The position numbers and the translations under genes are program-made. Below are positions 1-6,807 of a stretch of 6,807 nucleotides of DNA, piece by piece (the stretch's first letter is position 1; each line of letters opens with the position of its first letter). The stretch comes from Lachnospiraceae bacterium OM04-12BH. Its GTDB lineage: Bacteria; Bacillota; Clostridia; Lachnospirales; Lachnospiraceae. The DNA is taken from NCBI GenBank assembly GCA_003490145.1, contig QULQ01000030.1:1-6807 (forward strand), in the 5' to 3' direction. The notes beneath the pieces are model-generated. The model was not told where the DNA came from, made no database searches, and was given only the letters and a program-made list of their open reading frames with translations.

Positions 1-1044
1 AATCTGGCTTATTATGAGGTCTCCTTCCGGCAGAGTTTTTTATTTTCAATCATCAACTATACAATGCTTGTATTGATTGATTATGTGACTGTTTTGCTGG
101 GAGGAGGAGGTTCAATCCAAGAAAAATGGTTTTTACAGGCACTGATATCAAAGACTGCTTTTATCATTCTGATGTTGTTTATCAGAAGATTTAGCAAGAC
201 AAGAAAAAGCTACGGTCTGATTACAGGAAAAGAATGGTTACAGTTTTTCTGTGTTCCTGTATTTACGGTGGTCGGTTTCATTCTTATGTTTTATTCAGAA
301 AACGATGATATGCAGAATGTATTTTTATTTCTTTCGGTGGGACTGGTTGCGATTAACCTTATCCTTATGGAGTTCATGCAGAATACCATTGAAAAAGAAG
401 AGAGAATAAAAATTGCGGTACTTACGGAACAAAATCAGAAAAATCGTATTGCAGATTATCAGGACCGGGAAGAAATCTATGAGCGTCAGCGAAGAAAAAT
501 GCACGATTATAAAAATCAGCTTTCCACAATCCAGACGTTGATTAAGAATGGACACACAGATGAGGCACTTTCATTTACGCAGAAGCTGACAGAGAGCATA
601 GCTGTCGAGATGTCGGCAATCAACACAAATCATCCGGTGGTCAATGCTGTTTTAAACCAGAAATACCGCAGCATGCAGGAGAAGCACATAGCAGTGATCC
701 TAAAAGTAGGGGATTTGAAGGAGATTTGTCTGGAAGAGGAAGAGATTGTGATTCTGCTCTCTAATTTATTGGATAATGCAATCCGGGAGAGGGAAAAGGT
801 GCTGAAAAATACTGGAAAAGCGGTCATTCATCTGAAATTAGAGGGGGAAGAACATAAACTGATATTTGCGGTGAGAAATCCGGTGACAGAAAAGGCGGAA
901 ATTGAAAATGATACGATAAAGAGCAAAAGAGGGGATCATCACGGTATTGGATTGTTAAATGTAAAAGTAGTTGTGGATAAATATGGCGGTGATATGGTGC
1001 TTTCCTGCGATGAAAATGAATTTAAGGCAGTGGTCATCTTGTAA
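1..1044 (+). CDS. GHKL-type sensor histidine kinase, AgrC-like (5' end missing)
   Basis: This is a membrane sensor kinase that would phosphorylate a response regulator, typically of the LytTR class, after sensing a peptide. The frame is open from base 1, so the gene starts upstream; the first visible ATG (64) is internal and has no RBS. Four hydrophobic stretches appear before about base 380 (around FLFSIINYTMLVLIDYV, ALISKTAFIILMLFI, FFCVPVFTVVGFILMFY and VFLFLSVGLVAINLILM). A coiled linker follows. The phospho-acceptor His is in KMHDYKNQL (codon 502-504). The N box is NLLDNAI and the G box is HHGIGLLNVK, with a GGDM turn near the end. These are the elements of the GHKL/HPK10 group. AgrC-like proteins usually have six or seven membrane segments, so two or three lie outside the window. 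The stop is TAA at 1042-1044, 95 bp before gene A. The ligand and partner regulator cannot be seen. Confidence 0.93.
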   Translation, partial: NLAYYEVSFRQSFLFSIINYTMLVLIDYVTVLLGGGGSIQEKWFLQALISKTAFIILMLFIRRFSKTRKSYGLITGKEWLQFFCVPVFTVVGFILMFYSENDDMQNVFLFLSVGLVAINLILMEFMQNTIEKEERIKIAVLTEQNQKNRIADYQDREEIYERQRRKMHDYKNQLSTIQTLIKNGHTDEALSFTQKLTESIAVEMSAINTNHPVVNAVLNQKYRSMQEKHIAVILKVGDLKEICLEEEEIVILLSNLLDNAIREREKVLKNTGKAVIHLKLEGEEHKLIFAVRNPVTEKAEIENDTIKSKRGDHHGIGLLNVKVVVDKYGGDMVLSCDENEFKAVVIL

Positions 1045-1139: not shown

Positions 1140-1913
1140 ATGAGTAATACAATTAATGTGAACTATATGACACGGGCTTGCAATCAGTACCAGCAGAAAA
1201 TTGTGGCTAAAGATCAGGAGAAGGAAGATACAAGGTTTGCGGATAGTGTAAGAGAAAAGAGCGAAGCTAGCGGAAGTATAGTGGGCAATTCAAAAATAGG
1301 TTCTGTGTCTGCTAAAGATATGACGATGGTGGAATACAAGCAGTACATTTACAATAAAATATCCCAAATTCCAATGCATCCCACAAGGGCAGGCGAGTCA
1401 ATATCTGTCACCATTTCAGAGGCGGGTTTTGAAGCGATGAAGAACGATCCAGAGTATGAAGCATGGGTATTAAATGATTTGCAGGTGGGTTGGTCACAAC
1501 CGGATAAATGGTCCGGTATATGTGGAGGAGCGTTTTCTACAATATATTATGGAGCATCAAAAGAAGAATGTCATGCTGAGATGTGGAGTGCCGGTTATAA
1601 CAATGGGAATGGTGGGAAGATTTTTAATGATAAGTCAAAAAATAGTTTTTGGGAGCGCAGAATAGAAAATAAAAAGAGAATAGAAAATCAGGTAAAGAAA
1701 CAACAGGAAAAAAAGCGGATTCAGAAAAAACAAGCGGAAAGAACAGCTTATGAAGAATATGCGCAAAATAAAAGGTTATCCGCTCAGGATGCCAGAACTC
1801 GATTGGTGGCTGAGAGTAGTTCGTCTGCTAAGACTGTCACAATAAGTCAGGCAGTAGCTTCTTATGAGGCAAATTTTACAATGGCAGTAAGCGTATCGAA
1901 CAAAACCCAATAG
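1140..1913 (+). CDS. Gene A: uncharacterised 257-aa protein with basic C-terminal coiled coil
   Basis: I recognise this as a type seen in Lachnospiraceae but cannot assign a function; a DUF6033-like assignment is a memory-based guess. Residues 1-60 are polar and probably flexible. Residues 61-165 look like a compact domain: MTMVEYKQYIYNKI helix, the stretch PMHPTRAGESISVTISEAGF, then DPEYEAWV and a Trp/Gly/Cys-rich segment (WSGICGG, IYYGASKEEC, NGNGG). Residues 168-205 are a Lys/Arg/Gln-rich probable coiled coil. The C-terminus holds an SYEANF motif. There is no signal peptide or membrane segment. The N-terminus (MSNTINVNY) fits the shared leader pattern of this cluster only weakly. It stands 95 bp after the kinase and 45 bp before gene B, so A and B are probably co-transcribed. 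Confidence 0.88.
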   Translation: MSNTINVNYMTRACNQYQQKIVAKDQEKEDTRFADSVREKSEASGSIVGNSKIGSVSAKDMTMVEYKQYIYNKISQIPMHPTRAGESISVTISEAGFEAMKNDPEYEAWVLNDLQVGWSQPDKWSGICGGAFSTIYYGASKEECHAEMWSAGYNNGNGGKIFNDKSKNSFWERRIENKKRIENQVKKQQEKKRIQKKQAERTAYEEYAQNKRLSAQDARTRLVAESSSSAKTVTISQAVASYEANFTMAVSVSNKTQ

Positions 1914-1958: not shown

Positions 1959-2507
1959 ATGGGAATTAATGGAGTATCATCGTATGCCAATACATACACA
2001 TACGGAAATGTAAAAAATGAAAATGTAAAGCCATCAAAGAATAGTGAAAAGAATTATTATGCAGGATACACTATGAATTCAGCCAATAAGTTTAAAAATG
2101 TATCAGACTATTCAAAATATTTGACTAACAAGTATAAATGTTTGACTCCATGCAAAAATGCTTCTGTATTGATTGACGGAAGTGTAATGCGAAAGGCATG
2201 TGGAGATGAAAAAACTGCGAAATGGCTTGAGGAAAATTTAGCAATTATGCCAGATGTTATACGAAATGCACAGAAGGCGGCAATAAGTCATGGTAGTAAA
2301 CTGATATCAGTGGAGTTTAAGTTTACGAATAATGGAACCGAAATGACAACCTGTGGCATTTTTGGAGAGACTGGTACGGATTCAGAAATTGACAAATGGC
2401 TGGAGAGAATGAAAGAGGATAAAGAAAAAGAAGATAAAAAAACAGAAAATATGATTGCTATAGAAGCGACAACTAAAAATAAGGTAGGTTTTGATACATA
2501 TGCATAG
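1959..2507 (+). CDS. Gene B: uncharacterised 182-aa protein
   Basis: The start is set by AAAGGAGAG at 1943-1951, seven bases before the ATG. I do not know its function. The N-terminus MGINGVSSYANTY is the clearest example of the short leader pattern shared across this cluster. Residues 20-47 are Lys/Asn/Tyr-rich linker. Residues 48-140 look folded: a helix VSDYSKYLTNKYKC, a strand around ASVLIDGSVMRKAC, helices EKTAKWLEENLAIMPDVIRNAQKA, and strands ISVEFKF and EMTTCGIFGET. Cys residues lie at 61, 65, 81 and 132. A charged EKEDKK tract at about 152-161 precedes the terminal GFDTYA. No signal peptide or transmembrane helix is seen. The stop TAG at 2505-2507 is followed by gene debris rather than an intact gene. 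Confidence 0.87.
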   Translation: MGINGVSSYANTYTYGNVKNENVKPSKNSEKNYYAGYTMNSANKFKNVSDYSKYLTNKYKCLTPCKNASVLIDGSVMRKACGDEKTAKWLEENLAIMPDVIRNAQKAAISHGSKLISVEFKFTNNGTEMTTCGIFGETGTDSEIDKWLERMKEDKEKEDKKTENMIAIEATTKNKVGFDTYA

Positions 2508-2527
2508 TATCAATTTCTATAATTTTG

Positions 2528-2680
2528 AAGAAAGAAAAGATTACAAACAAGGTATTGAAGGTAGTGGAGAGAATTGCCCAGAATGAAGTGGAAAAACAGT
2601 TCTTGGCAGGACGGCAGAGTATTCAGCAATTTATCACCAGCCGAAAGGACCGAAGAAAAGGGAAAACTAGGTCAGAATAA
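2528..2680 (+). pseudogene. C-terminal gene fragment, basic helical tail
   Basis: This frame reads as a Lys/Arg-rich amphipathic helix (KVLKVVERIAQNEVEKQF, then a basic tail ending RKGKTRSE) up to TAA at 2678-2680. The composition is coding-like, but there is no ATG in frame and the only nearby alternative, TTG at 2525, lacks an RBS. It looks like the 3' end of a gene whose 5' part was lost in the deletion or recombination that abuts gene B. An ATG at 2680 overlaps its stop (TAATG) and opens a 43-codon frame (MKYFVECCGCDYRNG...) ending at 2811; that frame has no RBS and I do not count it as a gene. The fragment's source family is unknown. Confidence 0.45.
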
Positions 2681-2742
2681 TGAAATATTTTGTGGAGTGT
2701 TGTGGTTGTGATTATCGTAATGGCAAAACAAAAGGAGTTAAT

Positions 2743-2914
2743 ATGGGATTAGGCGTTGAAAATTCAGTTAAATCCGGGCGGGAATCTGACCTATCAGGAT
2801 TACGCAAGTGATATCCGGAAAATTTTAGCATATAACCGGACACAGCACAAAGATATTATGTCTGAGTTGAATGTACAGTTTGTTATAGCAGACGGTACAA
2901 TTCAGATAAACTGA
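2743..2914 (+). pseudogene. Frame-broken small gene with good RBS
   Basis: AAAGGAG at 2731-2737 precedes ATG 2743, which reads MGLGVENSV and then drifts into unconvincing sequence, stopping at 2811. The next frame over is stop-free from 2753 to TGA at 2912-2914 and looks coding: LKIQLNPGGNLTYQDYASD, a helix DIRKILAYNRTQHKDIM, then ELNVQFVIADGTIQIN. Removing one base between 2743 and 2765 would join the start to this body, giving a protein of about 57 residues. Another reading is a TTG start at 2756. A short frame from ATG 2720 (MAKQKELIWD) also ends in TAG directly before the body in the same frame. MGLGVENS resembles the leader pattern of neighbouring genes. It may equally be the tail of a larger deleted gene. 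Confidence 0.45.
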
Positions 2915-2930
2915 TTGGAGGAATAGAAGT

Positions 2931-3758
2931 ATGCACATTGGTTTTGGTCAGAATACCGTATCTTCATTGTACGGTCATCAAAAAGGCGATCATATGAAAA
3001 CTATAGAGCTTTCTCATAAAAAGCATAAGGCAAATGAATCGCAAGAAAAAATGACCGTAACATCCAGCAAGGACGTATGCCGGAGGATAGGGCATTCAGA
3101 TGAAGCCGATGGGGAAAATCAGGAAAACGCATATATACATGATAGGTTTGCCTTAGACGCTGGTTACGTAAATTATATTAGAGAAACAGTGCCTAAAACT
3201 ACTTGGTCAAAGGATTATCTTCAAGAATTATGGGATGAAGAGACTAAATATTTAAAGAGTATCCGTGAAAGTAAAAATGGATATGGTTTCGATGATATTG
3301 GAATGGGAGCTGCATATGCCTATTCTACTATGTATCAAAAAATTGTAGAAGGATATAGGAATGGAACAAGAGAAGTGTATGTATGCGATAATCCAGAGAG
3401 TGGAAAAAGACGTCTGTTGTCAATGGATGAAGAATTGGAAAAGCTAAATAAAGGTTTTGAGGAACTGATAAAATGGGACAAAATGGTTGCCAAAAGTCAA
3501 AAGCAAAATGCAGAAAATAAGCAGAAATTTCAGAATACAAAATTGGATGAATCGTTTGATGCCTTTGATATAAATCAGGCATGTGACTATATTCAAGATT
3601 CTTATTTAGAGTTCCGTTCACTTTATCTGGAGCAATATGAAAGAACGGGAGGAAATATAGATATAAAGTCTTTGTTTTCTTATGTTTTAAGAAGCGGAAA
3701 TCAGGATATGCATAAATATTGTGAATTTCTGTTTGAAAAAATTGGTTTTATTGTTTAA
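2931..3758 (+). CDS. Gene C: uncharacterised 275-aa protein, probably the N-terminal part of a split gene
   Basis: The start is supported by GGAGG at 2917-2921, nine bases before the ATG. The N-terminus MHIGFGQNTVSSLYG resembles the cluster leader pattern. Residues 20-70 are a polar linker. From about 72 the protein is mainly helical: YVNYIRETVPKTTWSKDYLQELW, GMGAAYAYSTMYQKIVEGYRNGTREVYV, then a long charged helix MDEELEKLNKGFEELIKWDKM and a Gln/Lys-rich stretch to about 205. The tail is DIKSLFSYVLRS...HKYCEFLFEKIGFIV. No signal peptide or membrane segment is seen. It ends at TAA 3756-3758, overlapping the ATG of the next ORF. The end looks abrupt: the +1 frame continues with coding-like LLFNAGIKMFEKY, so the native protein was probably about 400 residues. 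I cannot assign a function. Confidence 0.82.
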   Translation: MHIGFGQNTVSSLYGHQKGDHMKTIELSHKKHKANESQEKMTVTSSKDVCRRIGHSDEADGENQENAYIHDRFALDAGYVNYIRETVPKTTWSKDYLQELWDEETKYLKSIRESKNGYGFDDIGMGAAYAYSTMYQKIVEGYRNGTREVYVCDNPESGKRRLLSMDEELEKLNKGFEELIKWDKMVAKSQKQNAENKQKFQNTKLDESFDAFDINQACDYIQDSYLEFRSLYLEQYERTGGNIDIKSLFSYVLRSGNQDMHKYCEFLFEKIGFIV

Positions 3759-4132
3759 TGCGGGCATTAAAATGTTTGAGAAATATTGAAATAATAAGGA
3801 AAAAGCATGAGATGGCGGTTGCAAAGCAACAGAGTGAAGCGTGGAGAAAAGCGTTAGATGGAGTGCCGGATAGTTTAAGAATGTTGTTGGAAATAAATAA
3901 TACTGAAAATGTGCCGGAATATTCAGAAAAACAAAAAAAGCAATATAACGATGCAATCAAGGCTTATGATCATACCGGTAACGGTGTAAGCTGGTCGCAG
4001 TTTGAATGGAAAACTTACGATACACAGATGACAGTCACATTTGAGGATTCGGTGAAAGTTGAAAGCATTTCAAAAAATGGAAAGTTTAAGTGTATTATGG
4101 AGCCATATCCGGGTAATGAATTAGATTTTTAA
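3758..4132 (+). CDS. C2: 124-aa ORF, probable C-terminal part of frameshifted gene C
   Basis: Its ATG shares one base with the stop of gene C (TAATG), and no RBS is visible, so translation would depend on coupling. The first 10-12 residues (MRALKCLRNI) look like out-of-frame noise. From about residue 11 the sequence looks native: helix EIIRKKHEMAVAKQQSEAWRK, a turn ALDGVPDSLRMLLEINN, a second charged helix SEKQKKQYNDAIKAYDH, then probable beta strands WSQFEWKTYDTQMTVTF, VKVESISKNGKFKCIM. Residues of the third frame between 3748 and 3786 (LLFNAGIKMFEKY) bridge the two ORFs, implying two indels close together. It is therefore best read as the 3' part of a broken gene, though a coupled separate protein is not excluded. 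It lies 63 bp before gene D. Confidence 0.68.
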   Translation: MRALKCLRNIEIIRKKHEMAVAKQQSEAWRKALDGVPDSLRMLLEINNTENVPEYSEKQKKQYNDAIKAYDHTGNGVSWSQFEWKTYDTQMTVTFEDSVKVESISKNGKFKCIMEPYPGNELDF

Positions 4133-4145
4133 AAAGTATTTCATG

Positions 4146-4174
4146 TAGGAGTCAGAGCATATTACTGACTCCTA
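4146..4174 (+). promoter_or_regulatory. Perfect 10-bp inverted repeat (intercistronic hairpin)
   Basis: TAGGAGTCAG (4146-4155) and CTGACTCCTA (4165-4174) are exact reverse complements around a nine-base loop; two G-U pairs could extend the base. It lies between C2 and gene D, just before gene D's RBS (AAGGAG, 4181-4186). No U-tract follows on the + strand, so it is not a normal intrinsic terminator. On the - strand a T-run follows only after about ten bases (4131-4135). An mRNA processing or stability hairpin, or a weak attenuator, fits better. The 5' arm itself contains TAGGAG, an SD-like sequence that would be sequestered in the stem. Confidence 0.6.
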
Positions 4175-4182
4175 TGCAGAAA

Positions 4183-4198
4183 GGAGAACAATTTTATG
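4183..4198 (+). repeat. Translation-initiation repeat, copy 1 (gene D start)
   Basis: GGAGAACAATTTTATG contains the Shine-Dalgarno, spacer and start codon of gene D. It matches 5145-5160 at 15 of 16 positions. The match stops at the start codon, so the shared piece is just the initiation region. Confidence 0.55.
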
Positions 4199-5029
4199 AG
4201 TATAACGAAAGTTGGAAGTTCCTATAATTTCATTTATAACACAAAGACAGGTAAATTATCTACAAAAGATGGCAGCAAAAATGAATTTGTTGATTTTTGC
4301 AATGGAGATGTAAAGGGAGAAGATACAGAGACACTGAATCATTTTGATGAGCATACAAGATATCAGTTTACAAGAATGCTGTTTGCATATGGAACCGGAA
4401 TGACCGGACAGAATCCTTTTGCCAATGATGAGAAAGTCGAGATTACAGCGGATATAGACAGTGCAACCCATACTTCCTTTTATGTGAATGGGCAGAAAGC
4501 GTTTACGGCAATTACGGGTATGTCATATCTCCCATCCGAGATTCAAACCTTTGGAACCGTACAGCAGCCATTTAAAACCAGAGGGTACAAACCATATGAT
4601 CCCAGTACAAACAGTATCACGATTGGGGTTGGAAGCAGATTTAATCTTGGAAATGGATACAGCATGACGGTACAGGAAGATTTTGTCTGGGGCGAGGGCT
4701 ATGGAAACGGAAGCAAGGCAGATGATGAAAGATGCAATATGATGATAGGTGGTCTGAGCTCCCTGATACATTTTGCGGATCAGCAGTATTTTTCAAGTAT
4801 GACAGATACATACACCGATTATATTTTAGATTTTCTTGCGTCACAGGGAGTGGATACAAGCAGAGAATTTGTGATAAACGGGACACATTGCGAACTGGTA
4901 AATGGGAAAATAAGTGAAGTTGGTAACGATTATGTGGTGCCTAGTTCCATTCAGCAGAAAGCAGTGAAAAGATATGAAGAAAGTATGTCACAGCTTTTGA
5001 ATAGCGGAACTTGGTATAGATGGTCATAA
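4196..5029 (+). CDS. Gene D: uncharacterised 277-aa beta-rich protein
   Basis: The ATG follows AAGGAG (4181-4186) by nine bases. The N-terminus MSITKVGSSYNF shares its pattern with gene B (MGINGVSSY) and the 5328 start (MEINNTGSTY). Residues 13-45 are a Lys/Asp/Thr-rich hairpin-like segment, and 46-66 a helix (TLNHFDEHTRYQFTRMLFAYG). Residues 80-165 are rich in predicted strands (KVEITADID, TSFYVNGQKAFTAITG, SITIGVGSRFNLGNGYSMTVQ). Then come a Gly-rich loop WGEGYGNGSK, a helix MIGGLSSLIHFADQQYF, and helix TDYILDFLASQGVD. Next is a strand pair REFVINGTHCELVNGKISEVG, and the C-terminus is a helix AVKRYEESMSQLL. There is no signal peptide, membrane segment or catalytic motif I can recognise. It resembles unnamed Lachnospiraceae proteins, from memory only. 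Function unknown. Confidence 0.87.
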   Translation: MSITKVGSSYNFIYNTKTGKLSTKDGSKNEFVDFCNGDVKGEDTETLNHFDEHTRYQFTRMLFAYGTGMTGQNPFANDEKVEITADIDSATHTSFYVNGQKAFTAITGMSYLPSEIQTFGTVQQPFKTRGYKPYDPSTNSITIGVGSRFNLGNGYSMTVQEDFVWGEGYGNGSKADDERCNMMIGGLSSLIHFADQQYFSSMTDTYTDYILDFLASQGVDTSREFVINGTHCELVNGKISEVGNDYVVPSSIQQKAVKRYEESMSQLLNSGTWYRWS

Positions 5030-5075
5030 AAGTAATAGATCACTTGGACCGTTATGGAGAGTGAATAGATTCCGA

Positions 5076-5153
5076 ATGACAGAGGAAAGGACAGCATATC
5101 TGCAACAGGAAAAAGAATTTTATACAGTGTTGGCATCCAAAATAGGAGAATAA
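5076..5153 (+). pseudogene. Short C-terminal-like fragment (25 codons)
   Basis: MTEERTAYLQQEKEFYTVLASKIGE ends at TAA 5151-5153, reads like the helical tail of a larger protein, and has no clear RBS (only AGAG at 5058-5061, too distant). The frame is open upstream through the end of gene D, so the fragment may have lost its 5' part. Around it, 5030-5199 holds no intact gene: there is also a nine-codon frame at 5158-5187 and a short repeat at 5032-5047. Confidence 0.3.
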
Positions 5154-5160
5154 TTTTATG
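5145..5160 (+). repeat. Translation-initiation repeat, copy 2, leading to a 9-codon mini-ORF
   Basis: GGAGAATAATTTTATG differs from the gene D initiation region by one base. The ATG at 5158 opens a frame MHDAKMILR that stops at TAG 5185-5187, within the RBS of the Cys-rich gene. It could be a relic start of a paralogue deleted behind its first codons, or a leader peptide coupled to the next gene. I favour the relic. Confidence 0.45.
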
Positions 5161-5186
5161 CATGATGCAAAAATGATATTGAGATA

Positions 5187-5193
5187 GGAGGAG
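5187..5193 (+). promoter_or_regulatory. Strong ribosome binding site for the Cys-rich peptide
   Basis: GGAGGAG lies six bases before the ATG at 5200 and is among the best Shine-Dalgarno matches in the window. It supports real translation of a very short gene and decides for Met1 over the in-frame ATG at 5242, which has only AAGGAA upstream. Confidence 0.8.
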
Positions 5194-5199
5194 TTCCAT

Positions 5200-5325
5200 A
5201 TGAAATTAGGGAAGAAAACAAAGACTGAAAAAGGAACATTTATGGCATATGCTTCTTGTTCATGTACTTGCTTCTGCGTATGTAAGTGCCAGAACTGTAA
5301 TAGATCATTGGGGAGAAGAAAATAG
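5200..5325 (+). CDS. Cys-rich 41-aa RiPP/bacteriocin-like precursor (CLI_3235-like)
   Basis: The peptide starts MKLGKKTKTEKGTFMAYA, a Lys-rich leader, and then has a core with Cys at every second position: CSCTCFCVCKC, followed by QNC and a basic tail NRSLGRRK. There are seven Cys in 14 residues. From memory, the clostridial CLI_3235-type putative bacteriocin precursors (a TIGRFAM model) share a MKKLGKK-like start, a TVEAYA-like end of leader and a CxCxC core, and are proposed substrates for azole or thioether-forming enzymes. The match of both ends plus the strong RBS makes a chance ORF unlikely. The leader/core boundary is probably near AYA-SC. No modification enzyme, protease, exporter or immunity gene is in the window, so maturation is unknown. 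A metal-binding or metallothionein-like role is the main alternative. The +1 frame across the Cys block is also open and continues into gene E. Confidence 0.72.
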   Translation: MKLGKKTKTEKGTFMAYASCSCTCFCVCKCQNCNRSLGRRK

Positions 5326-5327
5326 AA

Positions 5328-5432
5328 ATGGAAATAAACAATACTGGTTCTACATATGGGGCAGCATTTCGTCAAAAACCGATTTTTTCATGTCTGGAAA
5401 GGAAACAGTGGCATTTTTTGAAGGAAAACTGA
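5328..5432 (+). pseudogene. Apparent native N-terminus of gene E, in a different frame
   Basis: ATG 5328 follows GGGGAGAA (5310-5317) by ten bases and lies two bases after the stop of the Cys-rich gene. It reads MEINNTGSTYGAAF, which matches gene D's MSITKVGSSY at M, I, G, S and Y. After about residue 20 the frame turns implausible (FSCLERKQWHFLKEN) and ends at TGA 5430-5432. Meanwhile the -1 frame becomes the long body of gene E. Restoring one base in the A5 run (5374-5378) or the T6 run (5383-5388) would join them. I infer a single-base contraction; a sequencing error or a recoding event remains possible. Confidence 0.55.
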
Positions 5433-6807
5433 AGAAAAATATGACACTTCAGGAAGATTCCTGTACACTTGGCAGCAATGACACTTATCGCAGACAGCAT
5501 ACCACTTATGAGGTTTCGGACAAGAAGAAGGGAAGTACGTTTCTGGATCTGGATTTTCTGATTAAGGACGAAACCAGCAGTCTGAAAGGAAATCTCAGTG
5601 ATAAAAAGGATGTGGATTTCTACAACTTTTCCATTCCATTTAATCGAACCATACAGAATTATTTTGGGGTTCAAATATACATGGACATGCCGGAAGGCTG
5701 TGATTATGACCTCACCTTATATGATGAATATGGCAATCAGGTCGGAAAGGCAGAATGGGACGGAGAAGGACGTAAAACACTGACCATCCCGAACTGGGAT
5801 ACAAATACCAATAAATATTGTATCAAGATAGAAAACAAAAATGGGGAAGAAGTTTCCCCGGATGATTATTATAAAATCAGTTTCAAGGTTTCTGAAAATA
5901 AAGAACAGGAAAAGACCGATGCCATAAGGGCGGCATTCGGGAACCTTCACGGTGCATACAGCCGGAAAGATGAAAATTGGAGGGAATACCTCGACAAATA
6001 TAATGAAGTCCTGATGGATACAGAGAAAAATTATACAAAAGAAATGGATAAACTCCACCAGAAGCAGTTTGAAAGTCTGCCGGAAGAAAAGAAATACAAA
6101 GGCGGACGCACAGTGGATGAATTGTTGCAGGACATGGCAGAAGGAAAGACACTGGATGATGTGGAAATGGAGTATGTGAAAATTTTTGCCAACCTGAAAG
6201 ATTTTGAGAAAGCACAGCAGAAGGCGGAACTGAAACATGATTTTTCCGAGGATTTTGTAAAGGATCTGGAAAGCAAAGGTATCTCACGTGATGAGCTGGA
6301 TGGAATGCAGATAAAGATTGAAAGCAATGGGAATGTAACAGTGAGCGGTATCGAAGATAAAGAAGTCCGGGAACAGGTTCAGAAACTGGTAGAAGAAAAG
6401 TACAGTGACCGGATGTATCAGTATTACACAGGAATTGCTGACAGTGTGGGAAATCTGTCGTCTAATACCTATCAGTATGCCACGGATGTGCAGGAAGTCA
6501 GGCGTTACTTAAAAGGGGTTACGGGAGAAGATATTTCTCTGGAGAACCTTTATCTGACACCGGACGGAAAAATTGGCGGGTTGCCGGAAAAAGCCGCTAA
6601 TCTGATCAACAAAACAAAAGACAATGCCAAGATAGAGCGGATAAAGGATGCATTGATAAATATTATAGGACATAACAGGACAAGCGGTGATCTGGGGATT
6701 CCCGATTTTACTTCGGAGTTTCAATTCAGCAATGGCGCTTTCTCTGTGGCAGACAGTGGTTTTACGGTGGATATGGCGGCATTGGATAGAAGGCTGACGC
6801 CCCAACC
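5390..6807 (+). CDS. Gene E: large uncharacterised protein with PPC-like domain (3' end outside window)
   Basis: The frame is open to the right edge: 472 codons from ATG 5390, which has no RBS. The native start is more likely 5328 in the neighbouring frame. Numbering from 5390, residues 60-167 resemble a bacterial pre-peptidase C-terminal (PPC) beta-sandwich: GNLSDKKDVDFYNFSI, then GCDYDLTLYDEYGNQVGK, then NKYCIKIENKNGE and DDYYKISFKV. Residues 172-345 are highly charged and helical, with GNLHGAYSRKDENWREYLDKYN, a KGGRTVDELLQDMAEGKTLDDVE segment and a small strand pair MQIKIESNGNVTVSGI. Residues 346-430 hold YQYYTGIADSVGN, VRRYLKGVTGEDISLENLYLTPDGKIGGLP and a helix. The end (FTSEFQFSNGAFSVADSGF) returns to beta. 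PPC domains normally sit in secreted proteins, yet there is no Sec signal and no protease motif is visible. The frame is also open upstream to 5210, overlapping the Cys-rich gene. Function unknown. Confidence 0.8.
   Translation, partial: MSGKETVAFFEGKLKKNMTLQEDSCTLGSNDTYRRQHTTYEVSDKKKGSTFLDLDFLIKDETSSLKGNLSDKKDVDFYNFSIPFNRTIQNYFGVQIYMDMPEGCDYDLTLYDEYGNQVGKAEWDGEGRKTLTIPNWDTNTNKYCIKIENKNGEEVSPDDYYKISFKVSENKEQEKTDAIRAAFGNLHGAYSRKDENWREYLDKYNEVLMDTEKNYTKEMDKLHQKQFESLPEEKKYKGGRTVDELLQDMAEGKTLDDVEMEYVKIFANLKDFEKAQQKAELKHDFSEDFVKDLESKGISRDELDGMQIKIESNGNVTVSGIEDKEVREQVQKLVEEKYSDRMYQYYTGIADSVGNLSSNTYQYATDVQEVRRYLKGVTGEDISLENLYLTPDGKIGGLPEKAANLINKTKDNAKIERIKDALINIIGHNRTSGDLGIPDFTSEFQFSNGAFSVADSGFTVDMAALDRRLTPQ

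Follow-up and report, generated by a model that had tools for sequence, protein, structure and literature searches.

The window, by which we mean the whole stretch of 6,807 nucleotides analysed here, carries an array of genes for proteins with M-x-I/V-type starts, some of them DUF6033-like, behind a gene for a GHKL kinase (PF14501). Our subject is a 41-codon open reading frame (ORF) that lies between this array and a gene we call E. The features, in order and with their strand, are the following.

1..1044 (+): GHKL histidine kinase gene, its 5′ end cut by the window (PF14501, 65.5 bits; 418 aa in genome G006)
1140..1913 (+): gene A, an array-type protein (relatives beside CcpM block genes in loci L045 and L049; another in L069, a locus in which CcpM was not found)
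1959..2507 (+): gene B, DUF6033-like below the cut-off (21.7 of 25 bits)
2525..2680 (+): small ORF B2, 51 aa (weak relatives, 17.6-22.6 bits, in the CcpM-bearing L047, L049 and L051)
2756..2914 (+): fragment, a 52-aa ORF left from an E2-like gene, whose C-terminal end it encodes (phmmer 84 bits to E2; 140 bases at 94.3% identity to G006 sequence downstream of E)
2931..3758 (+): gene C, 275 aa (L069 has a weak relative, 22.3 bits)
3758..4132 (+): ORF D0, 124 aa (no family match over the cut-off)
4196..5029 (+): gene D, 277 aa (array-type start MSITKVGSSY; no Pfam match)
5028..5087 (+): 60-base intergenic element (95% copies at G006:C1:2725384-2725443 and G001:C19:1986-2045; a 35-base piece at G006:C1:1661766)
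5186..5191 (+): ribosome-binding site AGGAGG, from the sequence, 8 bases ahead of the ATG
5200..5298 (+): leader and Cys core of the ORF, codons 1-33 through CQNC (TIGR04065, 30 bits; identity to P0002; L002 DNA)
5299..5325 (+): foreign tail NRSLGRRK and stop, replacing the C-terminal end of the relatives (7 of 33 bases equal to L002; resembles element 5028-5087)
5328..6807 (+): gene E, running off the window (out of frame here; intact, 511 codons, in L001 and L022)

The ORF at 5200-5325 begins with an ATG and encodes the 41-residue peptide MKLGKKTKTEKGTFMAYASCSCTCFCVCKCQNCNRSLGRRK; its stop ends at 5325 and the ATG of gene E stands at 5328, which leaves 2 bases between them. A first-pass annotation made from the sequence had described it as a peptide with a Lys-rich leader and alternating cysteines, preceded by a strong ribosome-binding site, placed directly before gene E and resembling CLI_3235-type precursors. 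All of this was borne out. The peptide has the Lys-rich leader and the Cys core with CxC repeats that mark membership of the CLI_3235 family, and the HMM check with the precursor model TIGR04065 gave 30 bits (E 4.3e-7) at a cut-off of 26, the match covering model positions 3-33 of 34. Matches to this model were found in 9 of 397 Lachnospiraceae genomes, seven of them over the cut-off, and in 0 of 14 control genomes. Because of this score, the rarity of the model across genomes and the presence of the identical 126 bases in two other sequences, Roseburia faecis M72 and G006, the ORF is real and beyond chance.

Both sequences are close to the window. M72, a gut Roseburia strain, matches it at 98.06% identity in its 4.4-kb contig L001; G006, a contig of 4.49 Mb from the same GTDB genus, does so at 98.47% across 6.8 kb. 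At 98% overall identity the 126 unchanged bases say little about constraint. G006 is probably R. intestinalis, since its other precursor is identical to the first 60 residues of P0151, a protein to which NCBI gives that species name. Elsewhere M72 and G006 are far more divergent (76.8% identity across 1,390 bases that surround a radical SAM gene), so either the locus has moved between species or M72 includes foreign contigs. An M72 assembly contaminated wholesale, which would account for the 98% cross-species identity, was not supported: contig C40 has no match in G006 and C41 a partial one only (92% over 655 bases, plus weaker matches), in a check that covered these two of the fetched short contigs, while C39 and C42 could still be foreign. 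The differences between the window and G006 are unevenly placed, with 1 of 104 in 2508-5325, 65 before and 38 behind it; this segment, ORF included, is probably a recent exchange or recombination tract. Plasmid records gave zero matches to window positions 5000-5500, and no relative of the 41-aa peptide was found in viral contigs.

The first-pass annotation had also implied that the precursor is complete, and this was not supported. The closest complete relatives are P0002 (66 aa), P0005 (65 aa) and, also with 65 aa, the precursor encoded in L002, which comes from a Lachnospiraceae MAG. P0002, the nearest, is the same as the window ORF over residues 1-33, through CQNC, after which it runs on with HSIGEANGTQ for a total of 33 residues, whereas the window reads NRSLGRRK and stops. 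At the DNA level 47 of 57 bases equal those of L002 over codons 15-33, against 7 of 33 over the next 11 codons. Behind the last Cys there are 19-33 residues in all 11 precursors from the fetched genomes and 8 in the window ORF. Among 108 homologues the median is 29 residues, and nine fall at 8 or below. In eight of the nine, the final Cys is not in the core but further on, either within the normal end or in sequence that has changed; the ninth, P0229, is a chimera. The 41-codon ORF is the leader and core of a CLI_3235-type precursor without the C-terminal end that its relatives share and that is expected of such precursors. TIGR04065 covers leader and cysteine core only, in 34 positions, and a copy cut behind the core therefore still passes its cut-off.

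The tail that stands in place of the normal end resembles DNA upstream. Positions 5290-5312 form an imperfect direct repeat (78%) with 5025-5047, and this upstream copy belongs to the 60-base element, which is also found ahead of an array-type gene in G006 and M72 (95%). As possible origins of NRSLGRRK, element 5028-5087 gave p 0.031 in shuffle tests and a frame-shifted precursor end p 0.098. The new end of the chimera P0229 (WTVMESE) is read from the 60-base element.

No maturation enzyme had been visible to the first-pass annotation, and family searches agree: profile searches of the window found no CcpM radical SAM maturase and no TIGR04066, carrier-like, protease or exporter gene. Around the G006 copy of the ORF (L021-L022) there is likewise no TIGR04066, TIGR04069, S8 protease or ABC exporter gene. 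NCBIfam scans of two loci, L002 and L042, showed the same gene order in both: precursor, CcpM, TIGR04066, carrier-like protein, S8 protease and ABC transporter. At other CcpM loci order and content vary. CcpM was present in 9 of 10 searched genomes, which had been chosen for holding a precursor or the window ORF. Within the genus, 1 of 62 genomes was over the cut-off and 3 of 62 had E below 1e-90, and 12 of 397 were over the cut-off in the family sample, where the searches for E, kinase and CcpM scored the best 3-4 candidates per genome. The CcpM loci of G012 and G024, just under the cut-off, were considered as possible ancestors and set aside, since their precursors are different ones and nothing there matched the array type. 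With P0128 as query, the 37 genomes of the L002 genus yielded G002 itself alone.

These enzymes might act from a distance. If the ORF were a short but functional precursor, acted on in trans by CcpM machinery encoded at another place in the genome, its intact start, ribosome-binding site, leader and core would be in keeping with that, and G006 does hold the ORF together with a complete CcpM cluster 2.2 Mb away, whose CcpM is the sole one over the cut-off in that genome. This cluster, however, owns a precursor (MKKLVKRSDVMQETLEAYCSCSCSCYGTCSC...) with a leader and core unlike those of the window ORF. M72, a draft genome, has the ORF, yet CcpM over the cut-off was not found there (best 272.8 of 500 bits), and the C-terminal end common to the relatives is gone. 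We consider maturation in trans very unlikely.

An array-type protein is encoded by the next gene upstream in 7 of the 11 precursors examined, within 130 bases in six and at 300 bases in one, and a Pfam test of five of these upstream proteins put four over the DUF6033 cut-off. DUF6033 proteins directly upstream of CLI_3235 precursors are encoded at L042:16124-16897, L048:4443-5288, L045:12450-13145 and L002:9290-9913. In L002 a relative of gene B lies 85 bases upstream of the precursor, and in the metagenome protein P0133 gene B is fused to a complete precursor. The proposal in the first-pass annotation that the ORF ties its neighbours to a peptide product locus is thus partly supported: the families recur at such loci, as the upstream genes and the P0133 fusion indicate, but kinases of 44-47% identity sit where CcpM was not found. 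With the G006 kinase as query, M72 follows at 97% and a partial copy in G137 at 77%; the next best, at 44-47%, are in G110, G331 (contig C36), G406, G396, G327 and G443, and these genomes gave no CcpM match at E 1e-100, apart from G331, whose CcpM lies on a different contig. Kinases at the CcpM loci of G339, G331, G207, G092 and G383 are 30-32% identical to that of G006. The array is, on these comparisons, not specific to the peptide system.

Several further features of the array deserve mention. In G006 a LytTR regulator also precedes it, beside the GHKL kinase, and a complete agr-like set (LytTR regulator, GHKL kinase and AgrB; L022:7774-10543) lies about 4.3 kb behind E2. The E2 fragment at 2756-2914 forms a second rearrangement scar near the ORF. 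Gene C differs from its M72 counterpart at 32 positions spread evenly over the codon (11, 9, 12), which suggests relaxed or diversifying evolution; the differences between the window kinase and that of G006 number 6, 2 and 34 by codon position.

Gene E loses its frame in the window at a T run (5382-5387) and is intact in L001 and L022, by phase variation or through a sequencing error. Of its 34 differences to M72, 27 fall at third positions of the downstream frame, and E appears to be under purifying selection. Pfam gave zero matches to it; the predicted fold of the M72 copy (L001:2858-4393) includes a beta domain at about residues 85-190 that resembles two known domains, the pre-peptidase C-terminal one and collagen-binding domain 3 (Foldseek E 1.4e-4, TM by target 0.67). 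In the metagenome proteins P0010-P0013 the C-terminal end of E is fused to the second half of the kinase, which would fit a tandem duplication or a rearrangement of the locus in some strains. E-like genes occur in 12 of 397 genomes and four of these are among the nine with TIGR04065 matches, an overlap with a hypergeometric probability of 5.6e-5 that ignores kinship; leaving out M72, the genome of the query, the overlap is 3 and p 8.3e-4, kinship again ignored. Gene E and the kinase were nonetheless rejected as marks of CcpM loci: no CcpM lies near the best E relatives (79-80%, in G327 and G443, near kinase relatives) or near the closer kinases, which leaves only a loose link.

Co-translation of the ORF with gene E is plausible, with the qualification that the window copy of E has lost its frame. 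Coupling of translation to E, as a short reading frame upstream of it, might even be all that the ORF now does; the 2-base spacing, the strong ribosome-binding site and the selection on E would suit such a role. Relatives of E in G327, G443 and G432 are preceded by other sequence, however, and with the downstream frame broken in the window itself we regard coupling as the sole function as extremely improbable.

Proteins from metagenomes offer parallels to the cut-off form. Among 106 homologues (P0002 and P0005 excluded), 44 have 14 or more residues identical to P0002 or the G006 precursor, and the foreign part could be traced in six of the 44; others outside these six, among them P0004, P0129, P0145, P0171, P0173, P0175 and P0222, have foreign ends too. 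Three, P0201, P0217 and P0229, are G006-type precursors cut behind residues 30, 25 and 22, in the Cys core, and joined to DNA 8,141, 8,568 and 15,562 bases downstream, respectively; each jump spans all five block genes, from CcpM to the ABC transporter. In P0133, gene B (18 of 18 residues, window 2052-2105) is joined to the complete precursor from residue 7, so that in some strain the complete form very probably lies downstream of gene B. P0163 has the CQNC-NRSLGRRK junction of the window with other DNA behind it, including a 17-residue match to the array region in L042 and L100; P0212 joins a relative of an array protein to a G006-type precursor. P0201 is supported by five contigs and P0133, P0163, P0212, P0217 and P0229 by one each, and such chimeric proteins may include assembly errors. 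The search returns only proteins holding a precursor part; breakpoints inside the precursor are therefore found by construction and preferred sites cannot be inferred from them.

The locus combines a family match with a missing end and the lack of maturation genes in the window, and the same cut-off form recurs in two other sequences. We think it probable that the 41-codon ORF is a stump or scar left by deletion of a CLI_3235 cluster within a DUF6033-type array, and not a working precursor. The missing end, the drop in identity to L002, the absent block, the jumps in P0201, P0217 and P0229, the P0133 fusion, the junction in P0163 and the E2 scar all favour this reading. The ancestor would have made a peptide modified by the radical SAM enzyme CcpM, trimmed by a subtilisin-like protease and exported by a downstream-encoded ABC transporter, a route we infer because complete loci encode such a block. 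A deletion starting inside the precursor gene would have removed its end together with the maturation and export genes; recombination among paralogous DUF6033-type array genes could have taken out the block and set E 2 bases past the new stop. Given its good ribosome-binding site, the stump is predicted to undergo translation even now and perhaps to pass ribosomes on to E, yielding no matured peptide.

A complete precursor at the window's own locus was not found in the fetched genomes, nor was the deleted block seen in place. Indeed, no precursor was found in L077 or in L069 and L070, which have close kinase and E relatives, so the fragment could instead have been brought in, if recombination between array genes placed the 5′ portion of a precursor gene in a locus of kinase, array and E from which the enzyme block had always been absent. 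L069 (in G443) and L070 (in G327) resemble the window in having the kinase, E relatives and array-type genes in one locus and differ from it in that neither the precursor fragment nor CcpM was found there; the direct repeat 5025-5047/5290-5312 flanks the segment, its upstream copy being part of an element found elsewhere. Against such a gain stand the shortness and imperfection of the repeat, the P0133 fusion, which suggests that a complete precursor follows gene B, and the three traced parallel events, all of them deletions; we judge it rather unlikely. Arrays of this kind with gene E are apparently unnamed in print, as far as our literature search went.

Deletion stumps could, beyond this, have a history of their own. 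CcpM clusters in Roseburia populations may have been switched off repeatedly by deletions that start in the cysteine core and remove all of the enzyme block, the translated leader-core stumps being kept for a function, for example as decoys for the CcpM or exporter of another strain, and spread between species with the DUF6033 array; taken jointly, we find this quite doubtful.

The window shares with the CLI_3235 family (TIGR04065, with CcpM TIGR04068, TIGR04066, TIGR04069, S8 protease and ABC transporter) the leader, the GTFMAYA motif and the CxC core. It differs in lacking the C-terminal end and the partner genes, those of G006 being 2.2 Mb away and beside another precursor. A radical SAM gene is described as commonly lying downstream of CLI_3235-type precursors (PMC7343975), and in the accessible text of PMC9062424 CcpM is named as a previously annotated enzyme only. 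A described relative is SacP23 of Paenibacillus polymyxa, whose CLI_3235-family precursor lies in a cluster with TIGR04068, TIGR04066, TIGR04069, a subtilase and an ABC transporter; produced from the whole cluster in Bacillus subtilis it is reported to inhibit Gram-positive bacteria, and thioether links are expected in it (PMC10731318). Its precursor has 61 aa and a full cluster, according to the same source, while the window copy has 41 aa and none. Our literature searches found no paper on CcpM loci in Roseburia, though such work may exist.

A hitherto unnoticed partner of the CcpM system may be the DUF6033-type gene that lies directly upstream of several precursors. Since TIGR04065 covers leader and core only, genome mining would take cut-off copies such as the one described here for producers. 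Judging by the deletion proteins, the CLI_3235 cluster may be polymorphic in gut bacteria, and this, if true, would bear on which of them make such peptides and which have lost them.
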